Below are positions 11,035-60,858 of a DNA stretch of 64,000 bases, piece by piece. Numbering within the stretch: the first letter of the stretch is position 1; each line of letters begins with the position of its first letter. A program made the translations under genes and the position numbers. This stretch comes from a virus, in the IMG/VR virus record IMGVR_UViG_3300050821_017570, positions 62,001 through 126,000 of that record, one strand, 5' to 3'. The notes under the pieces are model-generated. The model made no database searches and had not been told where the DNA came from. It saw only the letters and a list, made by a program, of their open reading frames with translations.

Positions 11035-11176
11035 TGGTTTGCTTTCTATCGGGCTGTAGCCCTTCGGGTTTTGCTCGCTTTGATCGCTGGAGCGCGCGAC
11101 TAGCACATTCGTGGGCCCTTCGGACCAGCTCAGCGTCGCGCTGCAGCTGGTGGGGATCGTGGGTCAGACGGCCCAT
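11012..11176 (-). CDS. Small basic hypothetical protein, 54 aa
   Basis: ATG 11176 overlaps the upstream stop (TGATG). 54 aa, helical and Arg-rich (ELVRRAHECASRALQRSKRAK). Overlaps the start of the following acidic gene by 23 nt. Supported only by its start-stop coupling and fill of an otherwise empty 70-nt gap. Confidence 0.5.
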   Translation of the reverse strand: MGRLTHDPHQLQRDAELVRRAHECASRALQRSKRAKPEGLQPDRKQTNGFLQHG

Positions 11177-11367
11177 CAGAGCCTATCTTCCAGATAGGGA
11201 GTTTCCGTAGGGGTCAAACGAGCGACCTCCCGTTGCAGGAGGTCGACTATCATCAGATGATCCGCTAGCTCAATCCATTTACCCGTATCGTGGGGCCGCA
11301 TGGCCACCAGAACGAACGGGTCATCCACCGGGCTAGGCCGGTACCGAAATATCTTTGGCAGTTGCAT
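11176..11367 (-). CDS. Hypothetical protein, 63 aa
   Basis: ATG 11367 with GGGG 6 nt upstream (MQLPKIFRYRPSP). Not recognised. The C-terminal half looks helical (ELADHLMIVDLLQREVARL). Overlaps the zinc-knuckle gene by 35 nt. Confidence 0.65.
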   Translation of the reverse strand: MQLPKIFRYRPSPVDDPFVLVAMRPHDTGKWIELADHLMIVDLLQREVARLTPTETPYLEDRL

Positions 11368-11680
11368 GTGGCCCCACCAGGTAATCCAGACAGATGTAGG
11401 TAACCTCATCCGGCAGATCGGTCGTCGCGGTGACGAAGCAGAAGCCTTCCTGAATCGTCAGGTTGGTAACCCGATAGAGCTGGCCAGCCGTCCAGTACTG
11501 GACGCCAGTCAGCCGATACGAAAGGTCCTGAGCCGCTTCGACCCAACAGCCAATGAATAACCGGTCTCGGTATTCGGTTTGGTTGCGAGGCCTGACGACC
11601 ACGCGGGGCGGTGCGGTCCTGTCAACCGCACACGCCCCCCGATCGTGCCCTAACCGTCCACAGTCAGGGCAATAGTGCAT
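11333..11680 (-). CDS. CCHC zinc-knuckle protein, 115 aa
   Basis: ATG 11680 overlaps the stop of the previous gene (TGATG) and gives MHYCPDCGRLGHDRGAC: a C-x2-C-x4-H-x4-C spacing, the classical CCHC knuckle that binds single-stranded nucleic acid. The rest (about 90 aa) is beta-rich with RDRLFIGCWVEA, which faintly recalls the IG-x-H-V block of the GQIW family. Predicted RNA- or ssDNA-binding adaptor; the beta domain is unassigned. Confidence 0.75.
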   Translation of the reverse strand: MHYCPDCGRLGHDRGACAVDRTAPPRVVVRPRNQTEYRDRLFIGCWVEAAQDLSYRLTGVQYWTAGQLYRVTNLTIQEGFCFVTATTDLPDEVTYICLDYLVGPHATAKDISVPA

Positions 11681-11814
11681 CAGAAGCCCTGACGGAACCG
11701 ACGGGTCTGAACGGCCTTGAAGGCTGCCTGACGACGGATGCTCATCTGGCGGGCCTGATTGGCCCGACGGGTGATCCAAGCCTTCTTGGCGGCGCGGCTA
11801 TACTTGGTTGACAT
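11680..11814 (-). CDS. Small Arg/Lys-rich protein, 44 aa (paralog of the next gene upstream)
   Basis: ATG 11814 with AAAGGA SD; product MSTKYSRAAKKAWITRRAN... It shares TRRANQAR and the spacing of basic residues with the gene at 11840-11989. Short basic peptides with an A-x-K-A-W-x-T-R-R motif occur in many phages and probably bind nucleic acid. No known enzymatic role. Confidence 0.75.
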   Translation of the reverse strand: MSTKYSRAAKKAWITRRANQARQMSIRRQAAFKAVQTRRFRQGF

Positions 11815-11839
11815 GGTTTGATTCCTTTATTCGTGTTGG

Positions 11840-11989
11840 TTACTTGGTCTGCAGATACTTGGAAATAGCATCTGTGATGCGATTCAGTTCGCGCGTAAAC
11901 GCGGCCCTCTTCGCAATATTGCTGCGACGGGCCTGATTGGCCCGACGGGTCGCCACAGCCTTGTGGGCTGCCAGCTGACGCTTACTCAT
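11840..11989 (-). CDS. Small Arg/Lys-rich protein, 49 aa
   Basis: ATG 11989 overlaps the upstream stop (ATGAGTAA). Product MSKRQLAAHKAVATRRANQARRSN... ends in a helix and KYLQTK. Paralogous to 11680-11814: the shared TRRANQAR stretch is conserved at DNA level (gacgggccaatc on the minus strand), so a tandem duplication is likely. Confidence 0.75.
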   Translation of the reverse strand: MSKRQLAAHKAVATRRANQARRSNIAKRAAFTRELNRITDAISKYLQTK

Positions 11990-12440
11990 CTGTCTCATCG
12001 TACGTCACTTCCGTGTGGCTGTCGGTTTGACAGCGTTGACACAAACATGATAACCAGCCGGTGCGATGCGACACAATCCGGGCGGGCTCACCGCCACAGG
12101 ATTGGCAATGCTTGCCGGCTGCGTTTTCGATCTCGGTAGCTAGCTGCCAGAACCGATCGTAAAGCGACTCAGCTAATGCCTTATCAGCCTTACAGGCCTC
12201 GGTAAGCGGAACTCCGTCGAGATAGAAACGGCATCCACCGAACTTCTCTTTGATCTGTGCGATCGAGATAGGTTCGTCAAAATGCTCTTTTAGTTCCAGA
12301 TAGAGGGCCCACAGGGTGCGACAACCGGTCCGAATCGGTTCATGCCACCCAGGTGGATACTCTACCCGGCACGATCCGAGCATCTCAGGAAACTCAGCGA
12401 CCAATTCCTTGTAGGGAAGGTCGTATTCTTCATCATCCAT
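11982..12440 (-). CDS. Hypothetical protein, 152 aa, C-terminal zinc finger
   Basis: ATG 12440 overlaps the upstream stop by 8 nt (MDDEEYDLPYKELV). The N-terminal 120 residues resemble small bacterial/phage proteins of unknown role, with IKEKFGGCRFYLDG; the C-terminus has CQSCGGEPAR ... CLCQRC, two Cys pairs 21 residues apart, probably a zinc ribbon. Co-transcribed with the RNA-repair-like genes. Function unknown. Confidence 0.75.
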   Translation of the reverse strand: MDDEEYDLPYKELVAEFPEMLGSCRVEYPPGWHEPIRTGCRTLWALYLELKEHFDEPISIAQIKEKFGGCRFYLDGVPLTEACKADKALAESLYDRFWQLATEIENAAGKHCQSCGGEPARIVSHRTGWLSCLCQRCQTDSHTEVTYDETDE

Positions 12441-13170
12441 ACGGTGGTGGATCCTTTGCTTGTTCCTCACATAGCTCACGTGCTAGCCAAATATGGTAGT
12501 CGATCACCACTTCCTCCCAAACCCGCAGATCGGGTTCTCGTCGGAGGCTACTTCTGATTTCGGCCAATCCGGCAAGCTCGGTAGCTTCTCGGAATCGATC
12601 TTGCCATTCATTATAGCTAAGACCCGCCTGTTTCACCTGCATGAGTGACTCTGCCATCCTTCGGTCAAAGTCACTCACTCGAACCGGCCAGGTGCCGTTT
12701 TCGAGACAAAACCACAACTGCCACAGTGTCCTAAGCGCATGGTGTTGGGCTTTCCGGCACTGACGCTCGCCTGGAGCGCCACGCTGGAACCACTTCTCCA
12801 CATCACGCTGTTGACCCTTGCAGAACCCGTGGATCGCCTTCGTCATTGGGTCGCTAGCGAGGCTGAATCGCTTGAGACTCAAGAGTTTGTCGCCCCACGG
12901 ATCACGTTCTACGATACATTCGTCTGGCGCCCAAAGGGTATCCAGATGTGTGAAGCTGCTTTTGCAGCCCACTAGGAAACAGAATTTTCGGAAAGACTCG
13001 AAACAAATATCAAGTTCCCCTTCGGGACGATACTGCTCGAATGCACTAAACCCTACCAGGTGAGAAAGCGTGCCCTGCCAACAGACGCCTCTATAATCGA
13101 AATCCGACTCAGCGGTGTGGAAGCCATAGGCACGCGATCCACCAATCACTTTGAGATGTTGTCGTTCCAA
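12433..13170 (-). CDS. Predicted nucleotidyltransferase (RlaP-like, pol-beta fold)
   Basis: 245 aa, ATG 13170. Residues 10-30 (GGSRAYGFHTAESDFDYRG) form the G-S-x10-D-x-D signature of pol-beta nucleotidyltransferases (D23, D25). The pattern GSRAYG...SDFDYRG is typical of the RlaP-like group tied to RNA repair; the C-terminal half is helical with KQAGLSYNEWQ. Directly downstream (11 nt) of an RNA ligase gene, which supports an RNA-repair role such as end modification before ligation. The substrate is not known. Alternative: antitoxin-like MNT nucleotidyltransferase, but it is longer than those. Confidence 0.88.
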   Translation of the reverse strand: MERQHLKVIGGSRAYGFHTAESDFDYRGVCWQGTLSHLVGFSAFEQYRPEGELDICFESFRKFCFLVGCKSSFTHLDTLWAPDECIVERDPWGDKLLSLKRFSLASDPMTKAIHGFCKGQQRDVEKWFQRGAPGERQCRKAQHHALRTLWQLWFCLENGTWPVRVSDFDRRMAESLMQVKQAGLSYNEWQDRFREATELAGLAEIRSSLRREPDLRVWEEVVIDYHIWLARELCEEQAKDPPPYG

Positions 13171-13181
13171 TCGGCCCCTCC

Positions 13182-14294
13182 TTAGGTGTCGTGAGTGGCT
13201 AGATAGTCCGAGCTACGTTGTTTCAGAATCAACCTGCCAAGCTTCGGATCACGCTGCTCACGCATTGGGCGAATAACTATGCCCTCGCGAAGCGTATCAC
13301 CCAGCACGGATCTACCTGTGCTAGCCTGATCCATACTGGTATAGCCGTTCTCGGTCATCCATTCACGCAGCGTCCGTCCCTTCGACAACACGGGCGCCAC
13401 ATAATCGTAGCCATCCAGGACCTCATAGAACTTCTCGGCATCGATCGGTTCGGAGTCTACCTCGATATCAAAAAGCCTCACATGAAGCTCTTTGAATCCA
13501 TAGATGTTCCCATTCATGCCTGGACCCAACAGCTCACCACGCACGGTGATGAGGTGACGACCAGGGAAGAATCGGGTACTCAGGTGGATCAGAATGTCTT
13601 CCAGGTGCGAAGCTTTGGCACCAACGTGCCAGTTAGTCACCGGGTCAACCAGCAGAAGACGTCGGCTGCAGTAGAGGAATCCCCTGTCAGGATCCAAGCT
13701 AACCGATGCGTGCGAACCTTCCATCTTCTCCGTCGCCACGACCGGTTGATCCATCAGGTCCTCGACCTGCCGTTTGAATCGAGCGCATGACTCAAGGTCA
13801 TACATCGAGACACCCGTCGGCAGCGTCATGGTACGCGAGCCATGGTTGTGGCCGCCACTGATACGCTCCTCTGGTTCCCACTTCACAATGCCCAGCACGG
13901 TAGAGTAGTCGACCGGTTCACCATGTGGGGTTGCGGCAGCTGACGCCATGTCGGCGACCAGACACTGGTGAGCTGCGGTCTGATAGTCGGGGTGATCCAG
14001 CAGACTCGTGTTGGCAACCACACCCTGCGAGATCTCCTGACGCAACCGTATGGTCTTCACACGATTCTTGTCCTTACCCGACAGCTTCCCCGTGAGGCCT
14101 ATCTTGTCCGTCACATGGGTCGGAAGGATCGAGTCGACCGGGAAGTACAGTACCTTGTCACCGGGCTGAAATTGGCCTTTGGCCACGACGAACTGATAAT
14201 CGATATCGGCCAATTTGGCTAGGTCGAGCCTATCCGCATTCGGATGTGGCCATACCTTCTCGATTGTCTCGATACGAATGTACCAGCTGGACAT
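13182..14294 (-). CDS. RNA ligase, Rnl5/DraRnl-like with N-terminal OB fold
   Basis: 370 aa, ATG 14294. The nucleotidyl-lysine motif is TEKMEGSH (K190, G193: K-x-x-G). The N-terminal 95 residues (IETIEKVWPHPNADRLDLAKL..., GDKVLYFPVDS, RLRQEISQGVV) match the OB-type domain that precedes the ligase core in the DraRnl-like branch. Downstream ligase motifs include TVRGELLG and EGIVIRP. ATP-dependent sealing of RNA nicks or breaks, for example tRNAs cut by host defence nucleases, is the family expectation. It shares one base with the acidic gene upstream and precedes the nucleotidyltransferase gene. Confidence 0.93.
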   Translation of the reverse strand: MSSWYIRIETIEKVWPHPNADRLDLAKLADIDYQFVVAKGQFQPGDKVLYFPVDSILPTHVTDKIGLTGKLSGKDKNRVKTIRLRQEISQGVVANTSLLDHPDYQTAAHQCLVADMASAAATPHGEPVDYSTVLGIVKWEPEERISGGHNHGSRTMTLPTGVSMYDLESCARFKRQVEDLMDQPVVATEKMEGSHASVSLDPDRGFLYCSRRLLLVDPVTNWHVGAKASHLEDILIHLSTRFFPGRHLITVRGELLGPGMNGNIYGFKELHVRLFDIEVDSEPIDAEKFYEVLDGYDYVAPVLSKGRTLREWMTENGYTSMDQASTGRSVLGDTLREGIVIRPMREQRDPKLGRLILKQRSSDYLATHDT

Positions 14295-44629: not shown

Positions 44630-45198
44630 AGTTTGGCAACCTCATCGGGAAACAGTTCGGCCGCAACCGGTTGCTGAGCCAGCTCTTTACGAGCCTCACC
44701 AGCATATTGGTTCAACACGCCAGGGATGTTGTACTTGAGGGCAAGTACACATCGGAACAGTGGGCTAAACGACCTGAACTCGTCAAGGATAACGAGACGG
44801 GGCTCCATGACCTTGATGGCGTCTGAAAAGGTGTGCCATTGAGCCATATAGAAGTCAATATGACTGATCCGCTGCTTAGCCTGCAGTCGAACAATGTCAT
44901 CGGCGATCTTGGCCGACTCTAATACCTGTGGGTACCAGATACCGTACTGGATCATAAGAGGAACTCGTTGCATAACGAACTCCTCAGCTGTCTGTCCACG
45001 CTGCCGGCAAAGCCACGCCGCACGGACATAGCTGGAGACTTTTGCACTCACCCGCTTGTCACAATATTGGGCCCTCACTTCAAGAAACAGATCCATGATC
45101 CGCTTAGCCAAGACTTCCAGCTCAGGCGTAACGGCGAAATGTTCCCCATCTGGGGTCAGGTTTTGATCTTTACGTGACCGGCTCAATCTTGAATCCAT
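44626..45198 (-). CDS. Hypothetical protein, 190 aa, possible helicase accessory factor
   Basis: Not recognised. ATG 45198 overlaps the helicase gene at 45170. Helical; motifs such as ELEVLAKRIMDLFLEVRAQYCDKRVSAKVSSY. No Walker motif, so not a DnaC-type ATPase. Position between UvsW-like helicase and DnaB-like helicase suggests a loader or regulator; inference only. Confidence 0.75.
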   Translation of the reverse strand: MDSRLSRSRKDQNLTPDGEHFAVTPELEVLAKRIMDLFLEVRAQYCDKRVSAKVSSYVRAAWLCRQRGQTAEEFVMQRVPLMIQYGIWYPQVLESAKIADDIVRLQAKQRISHIDFYMAQWHTFSDAIKVMEPRLVILDEFRSFSPLFRCVLALKYNIPGVLNQYAGEARKELAQQPVAAELFPDEVAKL

Positions 45199-46636
45199 TC
45201 TGTCGATAGACTTTGAATCGGTTACGTGAACGAGCCTGCAGATCGGGAGAGAACGTATCGTTGAAATCGATCAGTAGCCCTTTTTGCTTCTGACCATCCG
45301 ATCCCAATCGACTCAATCGACCCGGTACCTGTACCGAGTTGATCGAACTACTGGTACCATCGGCGCGGACCAAGATATCGAGATCAAGAAAGTTAACGCC
45401 CTTAGACCATATGAAGGTGGCGATCACGCGGCGCAGCGTACCGGCGCTGAACTGCTCCTTGTAGGCAGCGCGTTCCTTACGCGTACAGGTTCGCTGACCT
45501 TCCAGGATACCGCCACGCTTCGCCAGCCTATCGAGCTGTCTATCATCCGACTCACCCGTCACGACGGTAAAATCGGGCATCAGCTGCTGTAGTCGTAACG
45601 CATGTTCGATCTTGTCGACCATGATGAGGATCTGAGGATCCTCCCGCTCCAGCCGATATCTAGCATACTGCACCGAGTATCGGATCATTTCGTTACGGTA
45701 CTGGTTCTCCCAGATACCTTTACGGTTCTTGAGATCAGGCCGCACGATCGACTGGACGTTGGGGCCATGGTCGACCCGGAAGACCCAGACGTCAATCGGC
45801 ACCACGTTACCCATCTCGACGGCTTCCTGGTAAGGGACTTCGTATATGATGGGTCCAAACAGAGCCTCGATGTATTGGTCTCCGCCATCCGACCGACCGG
45901 TTGGTGAGGCCGTCATACCAATAAACTTGGCTCGTGGAAATTGGACCAAATCCTCACGGAATCGTTCGCTCACCAAGGCATGCGCTTCATCGCCTACCAA
46001 CAGATTAGCGTTACGATGACAGTGCTTGAGCGAATGGGAAACCGCAACCGTTACTCGCTGAGGATTCACAGTTCCATCACCACAAAAGCCAATCCGCCCA
46101 TCCTGGGCCACCAGTGACTGGTAGGTGTCACGCGCGATATCGATAGACGGGACGGTGAATATGATGTTTGCGTCAGGGTACAGGTGTACCAGTTGACGCA
46201 TGATAAAAGTCTTGCCCCATCCGGTTGGACAAACCACTGTGCCACAACGATTTGCAAGAATCGATGCCAATACGGCGGGTTGACTGCCACGCCACTGGAT
46301 GTCGGCAGGAATACAATCGAACCGTGGAGCCGGTAGCTCACACGGAATCCAATCCCGCTCCTCTACAGTGAAGCCAGCATCTTTTAGCCCACCAATGATC
46401 CTTGGGCCGAATCCACTGAAGGTGAAGAACTTGGCCACACCTTGTGGGTCTGTGTCGTACCAGAAGACACGCTGTGGCTTCTGAATGACTTGCGGCTTCC
46501 ATCCATTTCTCGGGTCGGGATCACCGCGCTCGATCAACGTGATGGAAAGGTCAGACTCAAACAACTGCCCTAGGTAGGCGGGTTCAATCGACATCACCCT
46601 ACCCAGGTAGGTCACGATAGCTGTTTTGTCGCTCAT
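45170..46636 (-). CDS. SF2 helicase, UvsW-like
   Basis: 488 aa, ATG 46636. N-terminal 110 residues precede the helicase core: Q-motif-like QPAVLASIL, Walker A CPTGWGKTF, TVPSIDIARD, DEAH-box variant VGDEAHALV, motif III TASPTG, then domain 2 with LIMVDKIEHAL, FTVVTGESD and VIATFIWSKGVNFLDLD and a QVPGRLSRL arginine-finger region. Family role: branch migration and R-loop or stalled-fork processing in recombination-dependent replication. First gene of the core replication operon; the upstream 230-nt gap holds terminators of the Ubl operon and perhaps this operon's promoter. Confidence 0.95.
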   Translation of the reverse strand: MSDKTAIVTYLGRVMSIEPAYLGQLFESDLSITLIERGDPDPRNGWKPQVIQKPQRVFWYDTDPQGVAKFFTFSGFGPRIIGGLKDAGFTVEERDWIPCELPAPRFDCIPADIQWRGSQPAVLASILANRCGTVVCPTGWGKTFIMRQLVHLYPDANIIFTVPSIDIARDTYQSLVAQDGRIGFCGDGTVNPQRVTVAVSHSLKHCHRNANLLVGDEAHALVSERFREDLVQFPRAKFIGMTASPTGRSDGGDQYIEALFGPIIYEVPYQEAVEMGNVVPIDVWVFRVDHGPNVQSIVRPDLKNRKGIWENQYRNEMIRYSVQYARYRLEREDPQILIMVDKIEHALRLQQLMPDFTVVTGESDDRQLDRLAKRGGILEGQRTCTRKERAAYKEQFSAGTLRRVIATFIWSKGVNFLDLDILVRADGTSSSINSVQVPGRLSRLGSDGQKQKGLLIDFNDTFSPDLQARSRNRFKVYRQNGFKIEPVT

Positions 46637-46866: not shown

Positions 46867-47487
46867 TCACTTGTTGCCCTTGATGGGCTCGGTGAGGAGG
46901 ACGAGATCGCCATCCTGGACTTCGGTATCCAGGGTGGCGGGATCGCCGCCGATCTTCAGATCGTAGTTGCCCTTCACGAGACCCGCGTGGCGGAGAACGT
47001 CCGCGACGGTGTCACCGTGGTCGACAGCCACCGGGGTCAGGCGACCCGGGAACTTGCCGACCTGAACGGAGATCTGGTTGCCCTTGATGGGCTCGGTCAG
47101 CAGAACCAGGTCACCATCCTGAACCTCGGTCTCCAGAGTCGCGGGATCGCCGCCGATCTTGAGATCGTAGTTGCCCTTCACGAGACCCGCATGCCGCAGC
47201 ACGTCGGCCACGGTATCGCCGTGATCGACCGCGACAGGCGTCAGACGACCAGGGAACTTGCCGACCTGGACGCTGATCTGGTTGCCCTTGATGGGCTCGG
47301 TGAGGAGGACGAGATCGCCGTCGAAGACCTCGGTGTCGAGGTTGGCGCTCTCGCCACCGATCTTGAGGTCGTAGTTGCCCTTCACGAGACCCGCGTGGCG
47401 GAGCGCATCCGCGACGGTCGAGCCTGCATCGCAGGTGATGGGGGTGAGACGACCGGGGAACTTGCCAACCTGAACGGAGATAGCCAT
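46867..47487 (-). CDS. Triple ubiquitin-like (beta-grasp) protein, poly-Ubl
   Basis: 206 aa from ATG 47487, SD AAGGAAG. After MA, three tandem 68-residue units (3-70, 71-138, 139-206). Each reads ISVQVGKFPGRLTP..., HAGLVKGNYDLKIGG..., then DGDLVLLTEPIKGN: strand, helix and strands of a MoaD/ThiS-like Ubl. Units 2 and 3 differ at one residue besides the last; unit 1 is more divergent (ITCDAG, GESANL). Units end IKGNQ, the last IKGNK; none has the usual C-terminal diglycine. Probable substrate of the E1-like enzyme, with the JAB protease cutting the polyprotein. Lys in each unit could form chains. Two terminators follow. The longer frame to 47535 has no SD. Confidence 0.9.
   Translation of the reverse strand: MAISVQVGKFPGRLTPITCDAGSTVADALRHAGLVKGNYDLKIGGESANLDTEVFDGDLVLLTEPIKGNQISVQVGKFPGRLTPVAVDHGDTVADVLRHAGLVKGNYDLKIGGDPATLETEVQDGDLVLLTEPIKGNQISVQVGKFPGRLTPVAVDHGDTVADVLRHAGLVKGNYDLKIGGDPATLDTEVQDGDLVLLTEPIKGNK
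46870..47481 (-). repeat. Three 204-bp tandem coding repeats (Ubl units)
   Basis: Units at 47278-47481, 47074-47277 and 46870-47073 (minus-strand order). Units 2 and 3 are near-identical in protein but differ at many synonymous sites, so the duplication is not very recent and has been kept under selection. Confidence 0.92.
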
Positions 47488-47506
47488 GTGAAACTTCCTT
47501 GAGAGA

Positions 47507-47525
47507 GGTGGGTTAGAGGCCCACC
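47507..47525 (-). promoter_or_regulatory. Small hairpin and possible promoter before the Ubl gene
   Basis: GGTGGG/CCCACC stem with 7-nt loop, in the 73-nt gap between the E1-like and Ubl genes. Upstream on the minus strand lie TTGTAC and TACAAA hexamers 16 nt apart (about 47523-47550), a weak sigma70-like pattern. An extra promoter here would give more Ubl than enzyme. Confidence 0.3.
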
Positions 47526-47560
47526 TTTGTAACAAACAACATTTTCAGTACAAGCGCAAA

Positions 47561-48274
47561 CTAACCGGCAGCCTTCTTGAGGAAGGTCCGGGGCAACAGG
47601 ACAGTAAAGGCGGGGCTCATAGCGACAAGGACGTCCCACTGTGGGGCTTCCTTCCCTTCCTTACCCTGTTTGTGGGCCCACCACTGGATCAGCGTCCACG
47701 TGGCGTATCCTGCGAGAATCTCGGCAGTCGGACCTACCGTGATCTGCGTCCCACAGGCGCTTACCGTCGCCTGCTCATCCCCATACAGATACCCTTCCCA
47801 GAACTTGACCTGTTCGGGGCTATTGGGATCGATCGCAAAGACACGCGCCTGGTCAGCCCCCATGCGGGTCTCGATCATCAGCTTCAAGTAGGGATGGTAC
47901 TTGATACTGGCGTCCCAAATCTCCTTCCGACTCTTCATCGTGTCGGTCAGGAGGAAAACGAACGATCCGAGATCCTGCTGGCCCTCGTAGGCCTCATTGT
48001 GCGCAGTGATCTCGATCTCGGTCTGGCGCCGGATCATCTCCTTCAACGCCTCGACCTTCGGCTTTCCAATGTCATCGATGCCAAACGCCTGATTTGGCAC
48101 ATTGTGGCCTTCGATCTTGTCGAAGTCCCAACAGTGAAGATTCTTGATGCCGAGCTTGGCCAGCGAAATGGCCACTCGGGAACCGGTTGCACCGCATCCG
48201 ATGATGTCGACCCGCTGCTCGCCAAAAGCATACGGGTCGAACACCTCCAGATGCCGCATCGTATTAAGCGGCAT
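47561..48274 (-). CDS. ThiF/MoeB/E1-like Ubl-activating enzyme
   Basis: 237 aa, ATG 48274. Rossmann nucleotide loop IGCGATGSRV (residues 25-34), acidic D50-F-D52 after the second strand, NVPNQAF (R/N-x-x-x-x-Q position), GKPKVEAL (K71), LLTDTMKSR (D111, R116) and a candidate catalytic Cys in ATVSACGTQ (C174). Family members adenylate the C-terminus of a Ubl, then take it as a thioester. At 237 aa it has only the adenylating half, without the SCCH domain of eukaryotic E1. Follows the JAB gene by 13 nt and precedes the poly-Ubl gene. A sulfur-carrier role is the main alternative, but the linked E2 and JAB genes argue for protein conjugation. Confidence 0.93.
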   Translation of the reverse strand: MPLNTMRHLEVFDPYAFGEQRVDIIGCGATGSRVAISLAKLGIKNLHCWDFDKIEGHNVPNQAFGIDDIGKPKVEALKEMIRRQTEIEITAHNEAYEGQQDLGSFVFLLTDTMKSRKEIWDASIKYHPYLKLMIETRMGADQARVFAIDPNSPEQVKFWEGYLYGDEQATVSACGTQITVGPTAEILAGYATWTLIQWWAHKQGKEGKEAPQWDVLVAMSPAFTVLLPRTFLKKAAG

Positions 48275-48287
48275 ACCTATCCTGGCT

Positions 48288-49343
48288 CTACGGGCCGCGC
48301 GGGGCCTGTGGGTCTGGCTTCACTTGAGTCGACGGAGCTTGCTCCGCCCCTTCAAGAATCTCCGCAACGGCAGGGTAAGTGTCCTTTGCGTTGAATCGTG
48401 AGGAGACTGAGGTTTCGGCAGGAGGGCTGTGGTGCGGGGCTCCGCAAAAGTGCTCCTCGTGATCGAGGACCTCCTGACCCGATGGTGCCACCGGAGTCGA
48501 AGAGGTTGTGCCTTCCAGCTCGATCACCGCAACCGTGTCGCCCAGCGACGGCAGATGGGTGAACGGCACCATCTTGGCACGCACGCCACAGCCCTTCTTC
48601 TTGTACGGGCAGGTCAGCATGCTGAACATCTGGCGACGCTCAACCGTGACCTCCTGCCGACAAGCCGAACACCAAGCCGGCACTTCCTGTTCGTCCCAAG
48701 GCTTATACGGACGATATCCCTTGAAGTCGTCACCATCGCTCCAGCTGGTACGTCTCCAGTCCTGGCTCGCACCGCTCCAGGTGAGAGGCTTGACCTTGAG
48801 GTCAAACTCCGCCTGAAGGGCCGCCCGACGCGGCGAATCCGACGATGCCTCGACCGCCCACTCGATGTCGAGAACCGCATAATGCTTGTCGAAGTCGAAC
48901 AGATCGAGCTTCAACTCACCACGCTTGTTGCCGATCGCTCGGATCAGGAACGGAGCCTCGTTGCGCTTCCAGAGCCCGACCTGAGTGTCGTCCTGACCAG
49001 ACGGTTCCACCCCCATCGTGTGATGGGAATGGAACCAGTAGTAGAGACGATTCACGTCGGCCTTGATGACCGGATTGGCATTCCGGCCCAGCTCGACCGC
49101 GAGCTTACCCAGCCCCTCGGTCGAGATCTCGTTGGTACCGGCGTTGACCTGCTGGTCGATCAGATAGACCCGCTGGACCACAAGGGTCCCATCGGCCAGC
49201 TTCTCCACCGCACCGAGCATCCCCACCTCAACGGTGGCGATGTCGGTGATGATGGCCTGATCCTCAAGAGCCTGGCGGCTGATGATGATCTTGGGAACCT
49301 GAGCCTGAATGTCATTCTTGAACTTGTGCCCAACAAACGTCAT
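48288..49343 (-). CDS. JAB/JAMM metalloprotease (deubiquitinase-like) with C-terminal zinc site
   Basis: 351 aa from ATG 49343 (AAGGA upstream; 2 nt after the E2-like stop). JAMM residues are complete: E39 in TVEVGMLG and H105-S-H107-x7-S115-x2-D118 in WFHSHHTMGVEPSGQDD. The family cleaves isopeptide bonds or Ubl precursors, here plausibly the triple Ubl and its conjugates. After the JAB domain a Cys4 site (C225, C228, C245, C252; WCSACRQ ... TCPYKKKGCG) forms a zinc ribbon or treble clef, then a disordered Pro/Ser tail. The zinc site could bind Ubl, E2 or target; an E3-like function is speculation. Confidence 0.94.
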   Translation of the reverse strand: MTFVGHKFKNDIQAQVPKIIISRQALEDQAIITDIATVEVGMLGAVEKLADGTLVVQRVYLIDQQVNAGTNEISTEGLGKLAVELGRNANPVIKADVNRLYYWFHSHHTMGVEPSGQDDTQVGLWKRNEAPFLIRAIGNKRGELKLDLFDFDKHYAVLDIEWAVEASSDSPRRAALQAEFDLKVKPLTWSGASQDWRRTSWSDGDDFKGYRPYKPWDEQEVPAWCSACRQEVTVERRQMFSMLTCPYKKKGCGVRAKMVPFTHLPSLGDTVAVIELEGTTSSTPVAPSGQEVLDHEEHFCGAPHHSPPAETSVSSRFNAKDTYPAVAEILEGAEQAPSTQVKPDPQAPRGP

Positions 49344-49345
49344 GA

Positions 49346-51043
49346 TCAATCCTTCTTCGCACCAGCGGCCTTCGCCGCCGGCTTGGCCATCTCGGCCAGC
49401 TCAGGGTATTCGGCCAGCTCGGCAGCATAGCGAGCCTTCTTCTCGATCGCCAGGGCAGCGCGCTGCGCCTTGACGACCTCCGGATCGGCCACCGGCCACC
49501 GGTTCACCTTGCTACCCGCGCTGTCGTCCACATTGACCGACTGCAGGTACAGGATGACGGCCACGATGGCCGCCTTGTACTCGAACGACGCCACCAGCTC
49601 GGTGACGGTCGACCCGATGTTGCCCCAGCAGGGCTTACCGCTGGAGAACACGTGCGGAGCCTGCATGCCCGTCTCCTGGGCATCGACGGTCTTGCCGATC
49701 GCGAACATCTTCACATCACCATTGGTGGTGTTGATGTTGATGCGCATGCACCCCACGGCATGGAGCTTGTTGACCCGAGGATCCGTCACATAGAGCGGAT
49801 CGGTCTCGACGGTCAGCACGTCGCCCTTGAAGGTGACGTTCGCCACATGCGCCAGCTCACGCAGAGCAACGAACTCCTTGGTCAGCTTGGCGGTCTGCTG
49901 ATCGGTCGTCAGGCCACGGGCCTCGGCGATCGCCTGTAGATGCTCGATATTGCGGGTCGACTCGATGATCTGACGCTTCGCCGCTGCGAGCGCCTCCTCT
50001 TCCTTCTTGACGTTCTCGACCGCGTTCTTGCGCTCGATCTCGAATCGCTTCATCGACACCGCGACATACTTCTCGCAGAGGTCGCGATAGTTGGGCGGGC
50101 GATACCCACGCGTCATGATCTTGACCGCTTCGGTCAGATAGGTCTTGAGCAGCGTGAGGGTCTTCCCATCGTTCACCGCATGGACGGCATCGAAGGTGAT
50201 GTAGAGGTTGTTGTCGTTGAAATAGCCAACCTCATCACCCTCGGCCGACATGATCTTGCCACCCTGCTCCCACGGCACGAAGTGGCCGGGCGGACGCTCG
50301 GTAACCTGATGCCCCCACATGGTCTCGGGCACCACGAAACGGGAATCCGGGCCACCCGCATCGGGCGCCGACCAGATGAACACGTTGAACGTGTCACCGG
50401 CGATCGGAGCCTGCGCGCGGCCGTGCGGGATGTAGACGTCGATGTTGCGCTTCACGTAAGCGCCCAGGATGTCCTTGAACGCCTTCAGAACCGAGTCACG
50501 GAAGCCCGCATCGGTTGCGATCGTATAGTCGGTCCAACCCTTCGGGGTCACGACGACGGCCGAAGCCTCCATCGTGCCGATCCGCACCTTGTGGGCGGTC
50601 GCCGGCTTGGCCGGAGCGGCCGTGGCAGCCGTGGCAGCCACGGCGGGAGCCGCTGCCGCAGGAGCAGCCGCCTGAGGTGCCGCAGGGGCGGCCTCAGGAG
50701 CTGCGGGCGCGGGAGCCGCTGGGGCAGCCGGGGCCGGAGCGGCACCGGCCGTGATGGCGGTCAGCTCGATCGCATTGATCGAACTGTGCTGCTGGGCACC
50801 GATGACCCAGCCGGCGCGAGCCAGACGGTCGAGACCTTCACGCGTCACGAGGAAGCACTGCTGACCGTCAACGTTCATGCCGTTGGGGGTCATGTTGTAG
50901 GCACCGACGTTGGCCAGGTCTTGCGCCGACACCACATCGGTCCGAATGGCGAAACTGACATCGACGACCGTCGGAACCGCCTCAGGAGTGACTCCCTCGG
51001 GGATCGTGACGGTGGCCGGACGAGGACGAGAAGTACGAGCCAT
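49346..51043 (-). CDS. E2-like (UBC-fold) protein with N-terminal domain and coiled coil
   Basis: 565 aa from ATG 51043, SD AAAGGA. Parts: N-terminal domain (1-100), Ala/Pro-rich linker (101-150), a second globular part (150-320), charged coiled coil (325-395), then a UBC-like end (about 400-520). The latter has NTTNGDVKMFAIG, HVFSSGKPCWGNIG and ILYLQSVNVDDSAG ... RWP. The order H464...C472 and the following helix with the N-V-D block are those of prokaryotic E2 proteins, so C472 is the likely thioester Cys. Operon linkage to E1, JAB and Ubl genes supports E2 function. A long parallel reading frame on the plus strand is only a shadow caused by GC-rich third positions. Confidence 0.85.
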   Translation of the reverse strand: MARTSRPRPATVTIPEGVTPEAVPTVVDVSFAIRTDVVSAQDLANVGAYNMTPNGMNVDGQQCFLVTREGLDRLARAGWVIGAQQHSSINAIELTAITAGAAPAPAAPAAPAPAAPEAAPAAPQAAAPAAAAPAVAATAATAAPAKPATAHKVRIGTMEASAVVVTPKGWTDYTIATDAGFRDSVLKAFKDILGAYVKRNIDVYIPHGRAQAPIAGDTFNVFIWSAPDAGGPDSRFVVPETMWGHQVTERPPGHFVPWEQGGKIMSAEGDEVGYFNDNNLYITFDAVHAVNDGKTLTLLKTYLTEAVKIMTRGYRPPNYRDLCEKYVAVSMKRFEIERKNAVENVKKEEEALAAAKRQIIESTRNIEHLQAIAEARGLTTDQQTAKLTKEFVALRELAHVANVTFKGDVLTVETDPLYVTDPRVNKLHAVGCMRININTTNGDVKMFAIGKTVDAQETGMQAPHVFSSGKPCWGNIGSTVTELVASFEYKAAIVAVILYLQSVNVDDSAGSKVNRWPVADPEVVKAQRAALAIEKKARYAAELAEYPELAEMAKPAAKAAGAKKD

Positions 51044-51066: not shown

Positions 51067-53325
51067 TCACGCCTCACCGACGTGAATCACATGGTCAAGA
51101 AAACCTTTGAGTGACGCATCATGTGTGACAATCAGAATCTGTCTGCCCTTGGCTTGCGAAATCTCGCGTAACCTCAGGAGCAGGTTCTGAAGATGGACGA
51201 TGTTTGCCTCGTCCAGATAAGCCGACGGTTCATCAAGAACCAGCAGGCCCATGTTCCGGGCAAACGTATCGGCCATCGCTAGCCTGAACGCAACCGACGC
51301 AATGATCTTCTCACCTCCGGATAGGCGAGATGCGTCTACCTGAACACCCTTCTTCTCTCCACTGATGAAGAGAATACGGAACGCCATATCGGCGTCTAAC
51401 CACATTCGAAACGGAGATTCGAGAAGTAGCAAATACTGCTCGATATGGTTGTTGAGAATCGCAGAGTATTCACGCATCGCCAGGGCTGGATACCCAGATA
51501 CATGCATAGCCTCTCTGACCTGTCGAACGACTGCGACCCACGCGTTATCGTCAGCCTCACGCTGAGACTGCTCAAGTAGGCGTCGCGCCTCACCTTCACG
51601 CTGTGTCGCTAGCCCGCTGGCGACACCAACTTTCAACGTCAGTTCCTGTAATGCGCGGCTGAGACCAGGATAAGCTTCCATCTGGCGCTTAGCCTCGGTC
51701 ACTTCCTCCATAGTTGGAATGTTGTCAATCTGACCTAGCTGATCGAGATACTCCTTTGCCTTACAAGCCGTCGCAGCCGCCTGGGTGATCCGCGTGACCA
51801 ACCCAGCGTAGCGCTCATTCGCTACCGCGACAGCCGTTTGAAGCGTTTGGAACTCCGTGACGATCGCTCGTAACTGAGTCATCAGGACGCTATCCGCCGG
51901 CTCGGTAGGCAGGCCTCGCATCTGACTGGTAATCGATTCGACATCACGACTCAGCAACTGGTGGGCGCGAGCCAGCTCGGTCAGTCGGGTCAACTCGGCC
52001 GTCTGGAGTCGCAGGTTCGTCTTGAGAACGTCGGCTTCACCTTTCAGCAACTTGCTCGTAATCTGATCGATCTGATTCAACTGGCCCTGTACGGTAGCAC
52101 GCTGCTCTTGCAGGACTGCTAATTCGGACTTCTTCCGCTGAACCATCTCTGGCCCGCCATGAACGGTCTGACCACACGTCGGACAGACCCCACTTCCAAG
52201 GTGCTGACACTCACTCGACAGTTGGCGCTGGCTATCCGATAGCCGTGCCAGCTCAACCTCCAGGGCTTCCTGACCTGGCATCTTCGGCCGCGCGGCTGGC
52301 GTCTTAACCATCCATTCGAGTGACTCCAACCGAGCGGTGTCGGCCTTGATCTGATCCGCTAGCGCGGTTTGATCTGCCTGGGAAAATGGTGCCAGCTGGG
52401 TCTTCTGAAGCTCAGCAAGCCGCTGACTCAGCTCAACCCATCGTTCCCATTGTGTGTGAGCCTTCTCCAGCGATTTGATCTGTTCGACCGCACTAATCGC
52501 AAGAGCCTGGCTAGCGTCACGCTGTGCTTGTTTGGCCACCAACGCTTGGTGGGCCTCATCTGCTTCCAGCCGAGCAGCCTCACACTCTTGCGTCATCCGC
52601 TCGTACTGCTGGGTCGCCTGGGCAACCGCAGCCGTATGTCGGATCGCTTCACTGGCCCGCTGAAGCGTCTGCTGGTGAACCGCCAGTCCCTCTAACGCGA
52701 CTTGCGTCCGTTGAAGGTCGGCTTCTGCCGCTACCAGTTCGGCTCTCGCCTTGGTGGTTGCAGCAACCGCCTCGGCCAGAATGTCTGTCAGGTTAGGCGT
52801 GACCTGGTAGAGATTCTGCTCAACCGTCAGGAGTCGATAGACCTGCTCGGTTCGATCGAGCCCAAAGCTAGCCTGGAACTCCTTGAGCCGGCTGGTTGGG
52901 CTGGCACACAAGATGGCCTCAATCTTGGTCTGCTGGATGAAAACATTGTCCAACAGGAGATCGATCGGAGCGCCAAACATGTCCTGGATAAACAGATCCA
53001 GTTCACCGGCCTTGTTGATACGGGTGCCTGGTCCGGTCAGAATCGACTTGGCCGGCAGATCACGATAGATGTGCCGGACGATCTGATACTCGGTACCGGC
53101 TTGATCGAACAGACCTCTGACCTCTGCGTCGGCCTGACCGTCGCGGATGTTGTCCTTGTTGTTGCCGCTGTTGACGCTTCGACCCGTGAACAACAGTCGG
53201 ATGGCGTCGCAAAGATTCGACTTGCCACTTCCGTTGGCACCCACGATACCGTTCAGGCCAGGTCGAAACTCGACCTCCAGACTTCGATGTTGGCAATAGT
53301 TCGTAAGCAGGAGTGATTTTAGCAC
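51067..53325 (-). CDS. Rad50/SbcC-like SMC-family ATPase (T4 gp46-like)
   Basis: 752 aa, ATG 53325. Walker A VGANGSGKSN (about 28-37), long coiled coils with a zinc hook GVCPTCGQTV at about 377-385, signature LSGGEK (about 668-673) and Walker B LLVLDEPSAYLD (about 693-704). Forms a clamp with the Mre11-like nuclease (55048-56184) for resection and recombination-dependent replication. Ends 23 nt before the E2-like gene, so the conjugation operon may be transcribed from the same promoter. Overlaps a GQIW-family gene by 7 nt upstream. Confidence 0.96.
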   Translation of the reverse strand: MLKSLLLTNYCQHRSLEVEFRPGLNGIVGANGSGKSNLCDAIRLLFTGRSVNSGNNKDNIRDGQADAEVRGLFDQAGTEYQIVRHIYRDLPAKSILTGPGTRINKAGELDLFIQDMFGAPIDLLLDNVFIQQTKIEAILCASPTSRLKEFQASFGLDRTEQVYRLLTVEQNLYQVTPNLTDILAEAVAATTKARAELVAAEADLQRTQVALEGLAVHQQTLQRASEAIRHTAAVAQATQQYERMTQECEAARLEADEAHQALVAKQAQRDASQALAISAVEQIKSLEKAHTQWERWVELSQRLAELQKTQLAPFSQADQTALADQIKADTARLESLEWMVKTPAARPKMPGQEALEVELARLSDSQRQLSSECQHLGSGVCPTCGQTVHGGPEMVQRKKSELAVLQEQRATVQGQLNQIDQITSKLLKGEADVLKTNLRLQTAELTRLTELARAHQLLSRDVESITSQMRGLPTEPADSVLMTQLRAIVTEFQTLQTAVAVANERYAGLVTRITQAAATACKAKEYLDQLGQIDNIPTMEEVTEAKRQMEAYPGLSRALQELTLKVGVASGLATQREGEARRLLEQSQREADDNAWVAVVRQVREAMHVSGYPALAMREYSAILNNHIEQYLLLLESPFRMWLDADMAFRILFISGEKKGVQVDASRLSGGEKIIASVAFRLAMADTFARNMGLLVLDEPSAYLDEANIVHLQNLLLRLREISQAKGRQILIVTHDASLKGFLDHVIHVGEA

Positions 53326-55047: not shown

Positions 55048-56184
55048 CTACGGGGCCTTGGCGACCCCAGTGCGTCTCAGTTGGCAGAACCGTTCCCTGG
55101 CGTCCCTGATGAGCTGGCCGGCATCACCGGGGTCACTCAGCAGGGTGAGGGCGAGCCGATAGGGCACCGGATGCTTGTCCGGGTCGATCACCCGACCCAG
55201 CAGGTCGGGCACGCTGGGGAGGACCTGAGATGAATCCGCCTGGTCGTCTGGCGTGGCGGGACCGGCGTGACTGCCACACTGGTCGTCCGTCACCAGCAAC
55301 CCGAACCGCTCGGTCAGTGGGATGGCGAGCTTCTGGGCCAGCGCGAACTGGTCGAGTGTCTCGTGGTTCCAACGCAGGTGGAGGACCGGCGGGAGCGCCT
55401 GTAGGCCAGTGAGGTCGGCCGTCAGGCTGGCGAACCGGGCCTCCAGGTCGCTGGGCACCCACATCGGCTGGAGCGTCATCACGGTAAACGTTCTGGCCGC
55501 GATGGGGGCTCGGAACCAGCTAAGGTCCCGGCGCACCACCACACAGCTCTTGGGGCCAATCTGGGCCCAATTGCGGGCATGGGTGGCTCCGCTGTAGAGG
55601 ACTTCCGATCCATGGAGGGCCCGTTGGGTCAGCGGGCTGTGGAGGTCACCCACCAGGGTCAGCGGGATCCCCTCGGGGATCCAATCGGCATCGTGGTTCC
55701 AGGCACCGTCGAACCTGAGGAACTGACGGATCGCCTGGTGGAGCATCAGGATCTGGGGAACCGGTTGGTCAACCAGACTGGCCATCTGCTCCTCGATCTG
55801 ATCGCGGACCGCATAGTCGAACGCCCGTACCGATACGCCGGCGATCTCGACCGGCTTCCCATCCCCCACGTGGATGGGGTGCTCGGATGCGGCGCAGTAC
55901 CAGGGCGTGGGTGCCTTGTCGTGGTTGCCCTGGTAGGCGAAGACCTGGATGTTGTGTCGGTGGCAGCGATCCATCTCGTGGCGAAAGAAACTGATGAGCC
56001 CGCTGTCGGGCCGTACGGTGTCGAAGATGTCGCCACCCAGGACGAGCGGAACCTGGTACTCGATCGCCCGGTCCACCACCTGACTGAAGCCGAGGAAGCT
56101 GTCACCACGAATCAGACGGCGATCCGTCCAGATCAGATGCGACAGGTGGAGGTCGCCCATGAAACACAGCAATGGATCACTCAT
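55048..56184 (-). CDS. Mre11/SbcD-like nuclease (T4 gp47-like)
   Basis: 378 aa, ATG 56184. Calcineurin-like metal motifs in order: GDLHLSH (D11, H13), LGGDIFD, YQGNHD, and LVGDLHSPL near residue 190, plus a C-terminal helical capping domain. Endo/exonuclease partner of the Rad50-like ATPase 1.7 kb downstream. Its start is 24 nt from the end of the 51-bp inverted repeat, and no strong SD is visible. Confidence 0.93.
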   Translation of the reverse strand: MSDPLLCFMGDLHLSHLIWTDRRLIRGDSFLGFSQVVDRAIEYQVPLVLGGDIFDTVRPDSGLISFFRHEMDRCHRHNIQVFAYQGNHDKAPTPWYCAASEHPIHVGDGKPVEIAGVSVRAFDYAVRDQIEEQMASLVDQPVPQILMLHQAIRQFLRFDGAWNHDADWIPEGIPLTLVGDLHSPLTQRALHGSEVLYSGATHARNWAQIGPKSCVVVRRDLSWFRAPIAARTFTVMTLQPMWVPSDLEARFASLTADLTGLQALPPVLHLRWNHETLDQFALAQKLAIPLTERFGLLVTDDQCGSHAGPATPDDQADSSQVLPSVPDLLGRVIDPDKHPVPYRLALTLLSDPGDAGQLIRDARERFCQLRRTGVAKAP

Positions 56185-58935: not shown

Positions 58936-59070
58936 TTAGCCCAATACCTCGCAGGTGCATACAATGGCGGCGTAGACAAGCCCAACCAGTGCGAGAACCT
59001 TTAGCAGCGATAACGCGGCTAAAGCGATGCCCCCGAGTACGAGATAGGACGTCAGATCAGCGTGTCGCAT
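58936..59070 (-). CDS. Small hydrophobic membrane peptide, 44 aa
   Basis: ATG 59070 (MRHADLTSYLVLGG), stop TAA. About 30 residues form a long hydrophobic helix (GGIALAALSLLKVLALVGLVYAAIVCTC). Ends before a terminator. Its first 9 nt overlap the GTG start of terminase on the opposite strand, so the two are divergent and share a start region. Confidence 0.68.
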   Translation of the reverse strand: MRHADLTSYLVLGGIALAALSLLKVLALVGLVYAAIVCTCEVLG

Positions 59071-60858
59071 ACAGCTCCAGGTGACCAGGCGAACCCAGTC
59101 AGTCAGCATGATCCATCTGATGTGATGGATGCCATCCAGAGGTATCAGCGACTTCAGGAGCGGTATCCGGACATGCCGGCGGTAGCCATCCTACCGCTGA
59201 TTTTCAAACTGAATGGAAAGCCGTATTCGATCTCAGAAGGCCACTTCCCGATGGAGCCACTGTTCCGGCGAACCAATCTGCCCTTGCAGTTGGTCCTGCG
59301 GTGTGGGCGCCAGGTTGGCAAGAGTCAGACATTCGCATGTTCGACCATCTTGCGGGCCATCTGTAACCCCTACTACAAGCTCCTGACGGTGACGCCGCTA
59401 TTCGAACAGGTGCGTAAGTTCAGCTCCAACTATGTGAAGCCAGCCCTCTCGGAGTGCAGGTTCCGAAGCCAGATCTTGAATCGCGGTCAGGACAACTCGG
59501 TCCTGCAGCGCACGCTGTCGAATGGATCGTATCTTCTGTACAACTACGCCAGCAACTCTGCCGACCGCATCCGTGGTACGCCGTCGGATGAGATCTTCCA
59601 TGATGAGGTGCAGGACTTTGACCTGTCGGTTCTGCCGGTGATTGAGTCGTGTCTTGACGCCAGTCAGTTCAAGCTGCGCAGATTCGCCGGTACGCCCAAG
59701 ACGACCGATGGACCGCTTGACCAGCTGTGGAACAAATCCAGTCAGGCAATCTGGTACATCCCCTGTCAGACCACGGGTTGCAAGGTCGAGAACATCTGTT
59801 CGGTATCCGGTCACCTGCTCAAGATGGTCGACCATCCTAAGACTCTGGTGTGTTACAAATGTGGCCAGCCGCTCGATAGCCGTCTCGGCTACTACGTCCA
59901 CACGTATCCGGACCGCCAGATGGAGTTCGCTGGCTATTCGGTGCCTCAGCCCATCCTGCCGATGCATTACGCGGATCCGAAGAGCTGGCACCGTATCCAG
60001 CGAGCCATGAAGGGGGACAAGCCGACCTTCGCCTTCTACAACGAGATCCTCGGTGAGGCCTACGACATAGGATCGAAGATGCTGTCCAAAGAAGAACTCG
60101 CAGCCGCCGCTACTCTTCCGGTTATGCTGCCAAAGCAGTGGCAGGGGGGCCGCTACCTGAGTGTCGTCCTGGGGGTCGACTGGGGTGGTAAGGGCAAGGA
60201 ACGCCAAACCGATCGTGAGGAGTTCATCTCCAACACCGTGCTGTGTTTGGCAGGACTGCGTCACGACGGGGTCGTGGAGGTCAAGTGGATCTACAAGACC
60301 CCATATGCGGCCAACCATAACCAAGAGGCCGAGATGGTGAAGGACGCGGCGGCGGACGCTCGGGTCAACTGGGTGGCCCACGACTTCACCGGTGCGGGTG
60401 ACGTTCGGGAGACTCTGTTGCGAAACTTTGGCTGGCCGATCGAACGCATCATTCCATTTAGTCTGACCGTTATGGGTCCCAACAACCCTATCGTCTCCTA
60501 CACACCCGCCGGCACCACGGGCGTGCGGTCCAGCTACAAACTCGACAAGCCTCGCTCGCTGCTTTTGCTATGCGAGCTGATTCGACGTCAGAAGGTGCTG
60601 CTGCCTCAGTATGAGGGCGCACGTGAAATGCTGGAAGACTTCTTCCACATCTACCATGAGACGGTTGATTCACCGCGAGGTAAGACCAGTCTGGTTAGAC
60701 GACTCACCGGTACGACCGATGACGTCGTCATGGCGATCAATAATGCGGTTATGGCGCTCTACCATACGACTGAATCGTGGCCCGTACTGGCGGACTCGTT
60801 TCAGACGTTGGTGCCGCCGATCGTGACGGCTATGGATTGGGACGATCGCGACTTGTGA
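59062..60858 (+). CDS. terL: Terminase large subunit (TerL)
   Basis: 598 aa from GTG 59062; an ATG at 59128 is an alternative start. Walker A RCGRQVGKSQT (about 80-90), coupling/Walker B region RGTPSDEIFHDEVQDF (about 171-186), Cys pair LVCYKCGQPL after CQTTGCK (zinc site as in GpA-like terminases), and nuclease motif LGVDWGGKG near residue 375, with DDVVMAINNAVMAL near the end. Cuts and packages DNA into procapsids. Only one of two clear plus-strand genes. Coding DNA is GC-rich at third positions, like the Ubl operon. Confidence 0.96.
   Translation: MSHTAPGDQANPVSQHDPSDVMDAIQRYQRLQERYPDMPAVAILPLIFKLNGKPYSISEGHFPMEPLFRRTNLPLQLVLRCGRQVGKSQTFACSTILRAICNPYYKLLTVTPLFEQVRKFSSNYVKPALSECRFRSQILNRGQDNSVLQRTLSNGSYLLYNYASNSADRIRGTPSDEIFHDEVQDFDLSVLPVIESCLDASQFKLRRFAGTPKTTDGPLDQLWNKSSQAIWYIPCQTTGCKVENICSVSGHLLKMVDHPKTLVCYKCGQPLDSRLGYYVHTYPDRQMEFAGYSVPQPILPMHYADPKSWHRIQRAMKGDKPTFAFYNEILGEAYDIGSKMLSKEELAAAATLPVMLPKQWQGGRYLSVVLGVDWGGKGKERQTDREEFISNTVLCLAGLRHDGVVEVKWIYKTPYAANHNQEAEMVKDAAADARVNWVAHDFTGAGDVRETLLRNFGWPIERIIPFSLTVMGPNNPIVSYTPAGTTGVRSSYKLDKPRSLLLLCELIRRQKVLLPQYEGAREMLEDFFHIYHETVDSPRGKTSLVRRLTGTTDDVVMAINNAVMALYHTTESWPVLADSFQTLVPPIVTAMDWDDRDL

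Follow-up and report, generated by a model that had tools for sequence, protein, structure and literature searches.

In bacteria, operons encoding a ubiquitin-like protein (Ubl) together with an activating enzyme (E1), a conjugating enzyme (E2) and a JAB protease have been on record since 2006 (PMC1779556). Iyer, Burroughs and Aravind described operon types 6a-6e, located on cellular genomes, plasmids or integrative and conjugative elements and usually with the E1 fused to the JAB or the E2; the phage Ubls in that survey were the lambda/T1 tail-assembly proteins TAPI/TAPK, which come without an E1 or E2 (PMC1779556). Bacteria use Ubl cascades to defend themselves against phages (PMC10097602), the Bil and Bub Ubl pathways are cited in PMC13373217 as doing the same, and bacterial Ubl conjugation is known mainly as a host defence against phages. 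Here we analyse a stretch of 64,000 nucleotides (the window), bases 62001-126000 of the IMG/VR virus record IMGVR_UViG_3300050821_017570 (187,139 bases in total). It carries a cassette of four open reading frames (ORFs), all on the minus strand, encoding a protein of three Ubl repeats, a ThiF-type E1, a JAMM/JAB protease and an E2-like protein. Profile matches and structure models make it likely that this cassette is a self-contained phage system for reversible ubiquitin-like conjugation.

The four proteins of the cassette

The E2-like protein consists of a Pro/Ala linker, a middle domain, a coiled coil and a C-terminal core resembling ubiquitin-conjugating (UBC) enzymes. The core holds a PH-x7-C-x-G motif with H464 and C472; of 117 aligned E2 sequences, 115 have the motif His, 115 the motif Cys and 113 the Gly that follows. 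In the AlphaFold model, which spans residues 170-574 as numbered on the 574-residue ORF, the core has a predicted local distance difference test score (pLDDT) of ~97 and runs through a helix, a beta-meander, the PH-x7-C loop and two helices, which is the order of elements in UBC proteins. With the whole model as query, the top Foldseek match was UbcH7 at a non-significant E-value of 0.11, a weak score that is probably due to dilution by the coiled coil; matches in BFVD were unnamed phage proteins.

A profile of the whole E2 mainly retrieved coiled-coil matches from the PDB and was dropped, and a profile of the core alone was used instead. Searched against 177,635 PDB sequences, it gave 23 matches at E<=10, of which 21 were ubiquitin-conjugating enzymes with E-values of 0.04-1.9 (UBE2L3 at 0.041, UBE2W, UBE2N and others). 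The HPNIxxxGxxCL segment of UBE2L3 falls on HPHVxxxGxxCL of the phage family, so aligned that the active Cys and the intervening Gly coincide, and the second His of the family HPH occupies the position of the asparagine in the UBC HPN. Comparison by hhalign related the core to PRTRC-B (P 0.013) and Prok-E2_B (P 0.0015), in the catalytic motif region only and with thin reference alignments. The core profile, the topology of the AlphaFold model and the spacing of the motif together make it probable that the 565-residue protein is an E2, as originally predicted from the letters alone. That prediction had named the lack of a UBC fold as the observation that would speak against it; AlphaFold and Foldseek leave the assignment standing, with a weak fold match. 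An E2-like core also occurs within a 1690-residue protein of another locus (L036:1802-6874), in which no other domain was convincingly recognised.

The E1 is identified directly by the ThiF family model, and by profile its best match is UBA5 (E-values in Table 1), with ThiF, MoeB and Cap2 also matched. G26, G28, D50, D52, N58 and K73 are invariant in 147/147 family E1s, and D111, R116 and R137 are nearly so. The candidate thioester cysteine C174, which we take to correspond to the C184-type cysteine of ThiF, is a Cys in all 141 E1s that cover the position, the other six of the 147 having gaps there. A peculiarity of the family is that Asn replaces arginine in the NxxRQ motif, giving NxxNQ in 136 of the 147.

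The JAB protease, with residues counted from the ATG at 49343, matches Rpn11, BRCC36, PfJAMM1 and CSN5 by profile. Its AlphaFold model has a pLDDT of ~95 over residues 20-160 and by Foldseek matches BRCC36 (6e-8) and PfJAMM1 (template modelling score 0.81 over the target). H105, H107, S115 and D118 are present in 100% and E39 in 97% of 76 sequences, and the protein thus has the JAMM motif E-x(n)-HxH-x7-S-x2-D in an MPN fold. Profile, fold and conserved residues all bear out its identification as a JAMM protease. Its C-terminal extension carries four Cys (CSAC...CPYKKKGC), a zinc-ribbon candidate, followed by a long low-confidence tail; this region is absent from the closest homologue (L015, 222 residues).

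The Ubl gene starts at the ATG at 47487, with an ORF that extends to a TTG at 47535. Its product is made of three repeats that are 84-97% identical in amino acids, each terminating in ..EPIKGN(Q/K), with profile matches to SAMP2, ThiS-like PF1061 and polyubiquitin-C; together with the ThiS model match this upholds the predicted triple beta-grasp poly-Ubl. Between repeats 2 and 3, identity is 97% in protein (2 of 68 residues differ) and 85% in DNA, and since their differences are mostly silent, all repeats look maintained by selection.

A Gly near the Ubl C-terminus is essentially invariant. Of 84 unique Ubls, not one stops at a single -KG, -RG or -EG. Instead, 63 of them end in G-(N/G/A/S) plus 0-3 residues, with a few ending exactly in GG and some having long tails, and the internal junctions of poly-Ubls repeat the end motif (KGNQ in the window, KGNV in L019 and KGGG in L069). 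The encoded window Ubl has the beta-grasp match and the conserved KG and ends in KGNK; hence either it must be processed or its mature form ends in Asn. The simplest reading of these sequences is that the Ubl would be a precursor trimmed by the JAB. The mature end may be the first Gly, as in PRTRC-C, or the next N/G/A, as in the GG of ubiquitin, and the latter would mean an Asn-ended Ubl in the window. The Ubl of one relative (L042:7237-7518) has a Lys/Pro/Ala-rich tail (AAKKPAAKPVKKPASKPAKKPAKK) beyond the KGN end.

Relatives in other viruses

Searches with single E2 and JAB sequences against annotated phages, PHROGs, Pfam, NCBIfam, PADLOC and the PDB gave nothing usable, and single E1, E2 and DNA polymerase queries for related loci gave no relative; family profiles were therefore needed, and relatives were collected through the E1, on which the searches were anchored. 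An E1 alignment of the window, Xanthomonas phage PhiXhv-12, Flavobacterium phage FpV4 and the crAss-like phage cr111_1 brought out 206 relatives in IMG/VR, and 80 loci were retained from them. Iterated profiles seeded by the window proteins alone then located E2, JAB and Ubl genes adjoining these E1s. E1, E2 and JAB occur together in 65 of 75 non-redundant viral or phage loci, 37 of these 65 also having a detectable Ubl, and the genes of the module lie on one strand in all 75. The residues named in the original prediction (C174 in the E1, C472 in the E2, E39/H105/H107/S115/D118 in the JAB) are present in the window and kept in distant relatives, and catalytic residues are near-invariant in 72-77 homologues of each enzyme. 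Gene orders include E2-JAB-E1, Ubl-E2-JAB-E1, Ubl-E1-JAB-E2 and E2-JAB-E1-Ubl, and because the order varies, functional linkage is favoured over mere common ancestry of one block.

This pattern bears on the idea that the cassette is a sulfur-carrier system, in which the Ubl would be a ThiS/MoaD-like thiocarboxylate carrier trimmed by the JAB and the E1 would form the acyl-adenylate, so as to thiolate a small molecule or a nucleic acid instead of tagging proteins. Among curated families the Ubl and the E1 are indeed best matched by ThiS and ThiF, and a JAB is also found with sulfur-carrier operons (PMC1779556, Table 1 row 4e). However, the E2-like protein with its invariant His and Cys is retained beside E1 and JAB in those 65 loci, and no rhodanese, sulfurtransferase, ThiG or MoaE was seen among the annotated genes around the cassette. 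Tandem poly-Ubls are, to our knowledge, also atypical of sulfur carriers. We regard a sulfur-carrier role as very unlikely.

The original prediction had called the set unusual and possibly undescribed. This is only half right: the full set is not confined to this phage, as dozens of IMG/VR contigs and several named phages have it too. In the named phages the E1 is deposited as a 'thiamine biosynthesis protein' and, in the crAss-like phage, its neighbour as 'contains metalloprotease domain', and no account of a phage E1-E2-JAB-Ubl operon was found in the openly readable literature, most subscription papers lying outside that scope. The phage module, including that of crAss-like gut phages, appears to be so far without a name as a Ubl system. 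In FpV4 and cr111_1 the JAB was confirmed by profile, and the candidate E2s were picked by motif inspection. Both phages (L003:5554-8624 and L004:5421-8651) have genes for an E2-like protein (HSH...CxG), a JAB and a ThiF arranged in the same order; their annotations read hypothetical, metalloprotease or thiamine biosynthesis.

The module also turns up in bacterial assemblies, on contigs of Obscuribacterales/Melainabacteria, candidate phyla, Methylomirabilota, Myxococcales and Clostridia; some of these contigs may in fact come from phages and have been binned with bacteria. In a clade of gut phages and Clostridia (L013, L055-L093, L123-L161, e.g. L136:6324-7760 and L133:949-1824), E2-JAB-E1 lies beside a reverse transcriptase in 51 loci, and in 13 loci there is a DUF6273/Hoc-like decoration protein, a neighbourhood resembling a diversity-generating retroelement.

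In the E1 tree, which is a quick tree and not a full maximum-likelihood one, the window E1 groups with those of L014 and L015 (support 96), and this group is sister to an Obscuribacterales set (joint support 84). In eight Obscuribacterales/Melainabacteria loci of this sister group, a ClpA/C-like AAA+ unfoldase gene directly follows the E1. This would fit a Ubl that hands tagged proteins over for degradation by a Clp-type unfoldase/protease, in a bacterial counterpart of the link between ubiquitin and the proteasome. Yet those genomes have other Clp proteins too, the conserved neighbourhood may reflect common descent, and no such Clp homologue was found in the window phage genome, so that a host ClpP/AAA+ would be needed. 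Degradation targeting therefore seems to us distinctly unlikely. The operon order in the Clp-linked loci is Ubl-E2-E2'-JAB-E1 (L096, L100, L101, L102, L103 at 10742-13324, L104, L105 and L107).

Genomic setting and linkage to sbcC

The features of the region are listed in Table 1. The four genes are adjacent at the positions originally predicted and, with ATG starts, are separated by 2 nt (E2-JAB), 13 nt (JAB-E1) and 73 nt (E1-Ubl); the SbcC stop lies 23 nt before the E2 ATG at 51043. In the order of transcription, SbcD, a helix-turn-helix protein, two small ORFs and SbcC precede the E2-like, JAB, E1 and triple Ubl genes, which are followed by the superfamily 2 (SF2) helicase and, in the same direction, by a 190-residue protein, a DnaB-like helicase, a primase and DNA polymerase A (PolA). 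Judged by these gene assignments (PolA, primase, DnaB-like and SF2 helicases, SbcC, SbcD), the surroundings of the cassette are a predicted phage replication/recombination operon. TerL is nearby, and the location first proposed for the cassette holds.

Table 1. Features of the cassette and its surroundings, with positions in the window
Feature	Position	Strand	Evidence
Poly-Ubl, three ThiS/SAMP2-like beta-grasp repeats	46867..47487	-	ThiS hidden Markov model 8.6e-7; profile SAMP2, polyubiquitin-C
E1-like ThiF-fold adenylating enzyme, candidate thioester Cys C174	47561..48274	-	ThiF 1.1e-20; UBA5 profile 1.6e-17
JAMM/JAB (MPN+) metalloprotease, residues 1-190	48288..49343	-	Rpn11 profile 1.5e-9; Foldseek BRCC36, PfJAMM1
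E2-like protein, 565 residues, UBC-like core	49346..51043	-	AlphaFold core pLDDT ~97; core profile UBE2L3/W/N
SbcC/Rad50-like ATPase, immediately upstream of cassette	51067..53325	-	phrog_77 SbcC 2e-39
SbcD/Mre11-like phosphoesterase (context)	55048..56184	-	Metallophos 1.6e-4
SF2 DNA helicase (context)	45170..46636	-	phrog_16 5e-42
TerL	59062-60858	opposite to cassette	

The lineage of the window was followed in seven further usefully long sequences, comprising TerL relatives and the E1 relative L183. Five of them (L183/G338, L262/G334, L263/G335, L265/G336 and L266/G337) have the order SbcD-E2-JAB-E1-Ubl-SbcC, in which the SbcD homologue directly adjoins the E2. In the same five a second, diverged set follows SbcC, in the order SbcC-[Ubl-E2b-JABb-E1b]-SF2 helicase; E1b was detected in each of them, Ubl, E2b and JABb wherever a locus extends far enough, and the helicase end was checked in three. 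In G336 and G338, E1b runs directly into the string of SF2 helicase, 190-residue protein, DnaB, primase and PolA, and in G334 this string follows the E1b position. The window has its first-type cassette between SbcC and the SF2 helicase (SbcC-[E2-JAB-E1-Ubl3]-SF2 helicase). The remaining two sequences (G332 and G333) have an empty site, with SbcC followed by the SF2 helicase after 6-24 nt and no E1 anywhere in the record. In the quick tree, the E1 and E1b of a single phage belong to different regions. Within one lineage of phages, two kinds of Ubl cassette thus flank sbcC, and sister phages lack a cassette at one of the sites; wherever a member of this lineage has the cassette, it lies directly beside sbcC, at either of two positions.

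Among phages related to the window, L014:11234-16671, L015:11416-16665 and L183:9355-12652 have such a second, diverged set of Ubl, E2, JAB and E1 past sbcC. The second-set E2 has HPH..C and several CxxC pairs, making a zinc-binding, RING-like part possible (an E2-E3 fusion candidate); Pfam found nothing relevant in this region.

The location is also informative on the proposal that the cassette is a weapon, either tagging virion or host proteins in the manner of Bil for superinfection exclusion, or disarming host Bil, Bub or CBASS (cyclic oligonucleotide-based anti-phage signalling system) through its JAB or E2. Defence against phages is indeed a role of bacterial Ubl cascades (PMC10097602; for Bil and Bub, cited in PMC13373217), accessory cassettes of this sort are common in phages, and this one is present or absent among members of the lineage. 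However, a decoy or deconjugase needs less than a complete cascade with its own Ubl, and the cassette sits inside the core replication/recombination operon and not in an accessory region, beside sbcC at two positions. We find a role as a weapon improbable, though worth keeping in view.

Proposed function

In the conjugation system that we propose, the JAB protease would cut the poly-Ubl precursor at the K-G-N junctions. The E1 would adenylate the Ubl C-terminus and then load the Ubl onto C174, from which it would be passed to C472 of the E2. The E2 would transfer it to lysines on target proteins, and the JAB would take it off again. What the sequences show is the gene content, the folds or family profiles and the conservation of every catalytic residue; enzymatic activity, order of steps and target are what we infer.

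The likeliest targets would be the SbcCD (Mre11-Rad50-like) nuclease of the phage itself or replication proteins from the same operon, because the cassette adjoins sbcC in different phages and at two positions, while two relatives have the same string of genes without it. Gene position is what points to SbcCD and replication proteins rather than to virion proteins, which the original prediction had also considered. A more far-reaching reading is that phages at large use a dedicated Ubl signalling with an Asn-type (G-N) Ubl end that reversibly modifies SbcCD and the replication machinery, some of them running two unrelated systems around sbcC; this we offer tentatively, as possible but doubtful.

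Several observations weigh against reversible conjugation directed at these proteins. For the E2, the E-values are borderline (0.041 by sequence profile and 0.11 by fold), and no member of the family is called an E2 by a significant Pfam match. The cassette could lie beside sbcC because insertion is tolerated there and not for a functional reason, and other phages bearing the module have different neighbours, among them primase, uracil-DNA glycosylase, DNA polymerase and reverse transcriptase. Furthermore, the gut-phage clade with E2-JAB-E1 has no recognisable Ubl nearby.

If the proposal is true, a complete cascade in a replication/recombination operon, conserved in many phages including crAss-like ones, would mean that phages themselves use ubiquitin-like signalling. 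With four small soluble proteins and a natural empty-site control in sister phages, the identity of the substrate and the chemistry of the C-terminus can be tested directly. Phage genes that now carry the label 'thiamine biosynthesis protein ThiF' also deserve a second look.

Comparison with known systems

The PRTRC plasmid system (ThiF, A = JAB, B = Prok-E2_D, C = Ubl) shares the E2-JAB-E1 order with the window. PRTRC Ubls end in K/R-G with variable tails, several PRTRC-C ending exactly in KG or RG, and the E1 profiles align across the whole domain (hhalign 1.5e-22). However, PRTRC E1s have NxxRQ (8/9, the ninth without a match) where the phage family has NxxNQ, and form their own clade in the quick tree, and the window E2 has the upstream His. 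Prok-E2_D did not match the window E2, TIGR03736 scored far below cut-off on the window E1, the phage Ubl profile had no significant match to that of PRTRC-C, and the partners ParB and protein E/F are not in the window operon. Membership in PRTRC was rejected on the E1 motif, the E2 family and the missing partner genes.

With CBASS Cap2, Bil and Bub the cassette has in common the PH-x7-C motif, present in Prok-E2_B proteins, a ThiF E1 and a JAB deconjugase. In contrast to them, the window E1 and E2 are separate, and the E1 falls in a different clade (quick tree). No cGAS-like enzyme or Cap/Bil/Bub partner accompanies the window cassette, and PADLOC/NCBIfam did not call the window E2, JAB or Ubl as part of CBASS, Bil or Bub. 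PADLOC recognised a generic E1 domain alone, below system level, and a defence-system reading on that basis was rejected.

By structure or profile, the Ubl, JAB and E2 are matched best by archaeal SAMP2-HvJAMM1/PfJAMM1 and eukaryotic Rpn11/UBE2L3, but no proteasome genes were noticed with the window cassette. Archaeal SAMP systems, as far as we know, have no E2.

As in types 6a-6e, Ubl, E1, E2-like and JAB are encoded together and are mobile and sporadic (PMC1779556); unlike them, the window has four separate genes in a phage replication operon and an E2 that is missed by Pfam E2 models. Type 6e has 1-3 tandem Ubl domains, comparable to the three repeats in the window, and is defined by a JAB-E1 fusion or a special E1 N-terminal domain and by an inactive RWD-like E2 (PMC1779556); the window does not belong to it, its E1 and JAB being separate genes and its E2-like protein keeping the Cys. 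The E1-E2-JAB-Ubl operon is thus of a kind already known in bacteria, and the phage family lies outside PRTRC, CBASS/Bil/Bub and type 6e.

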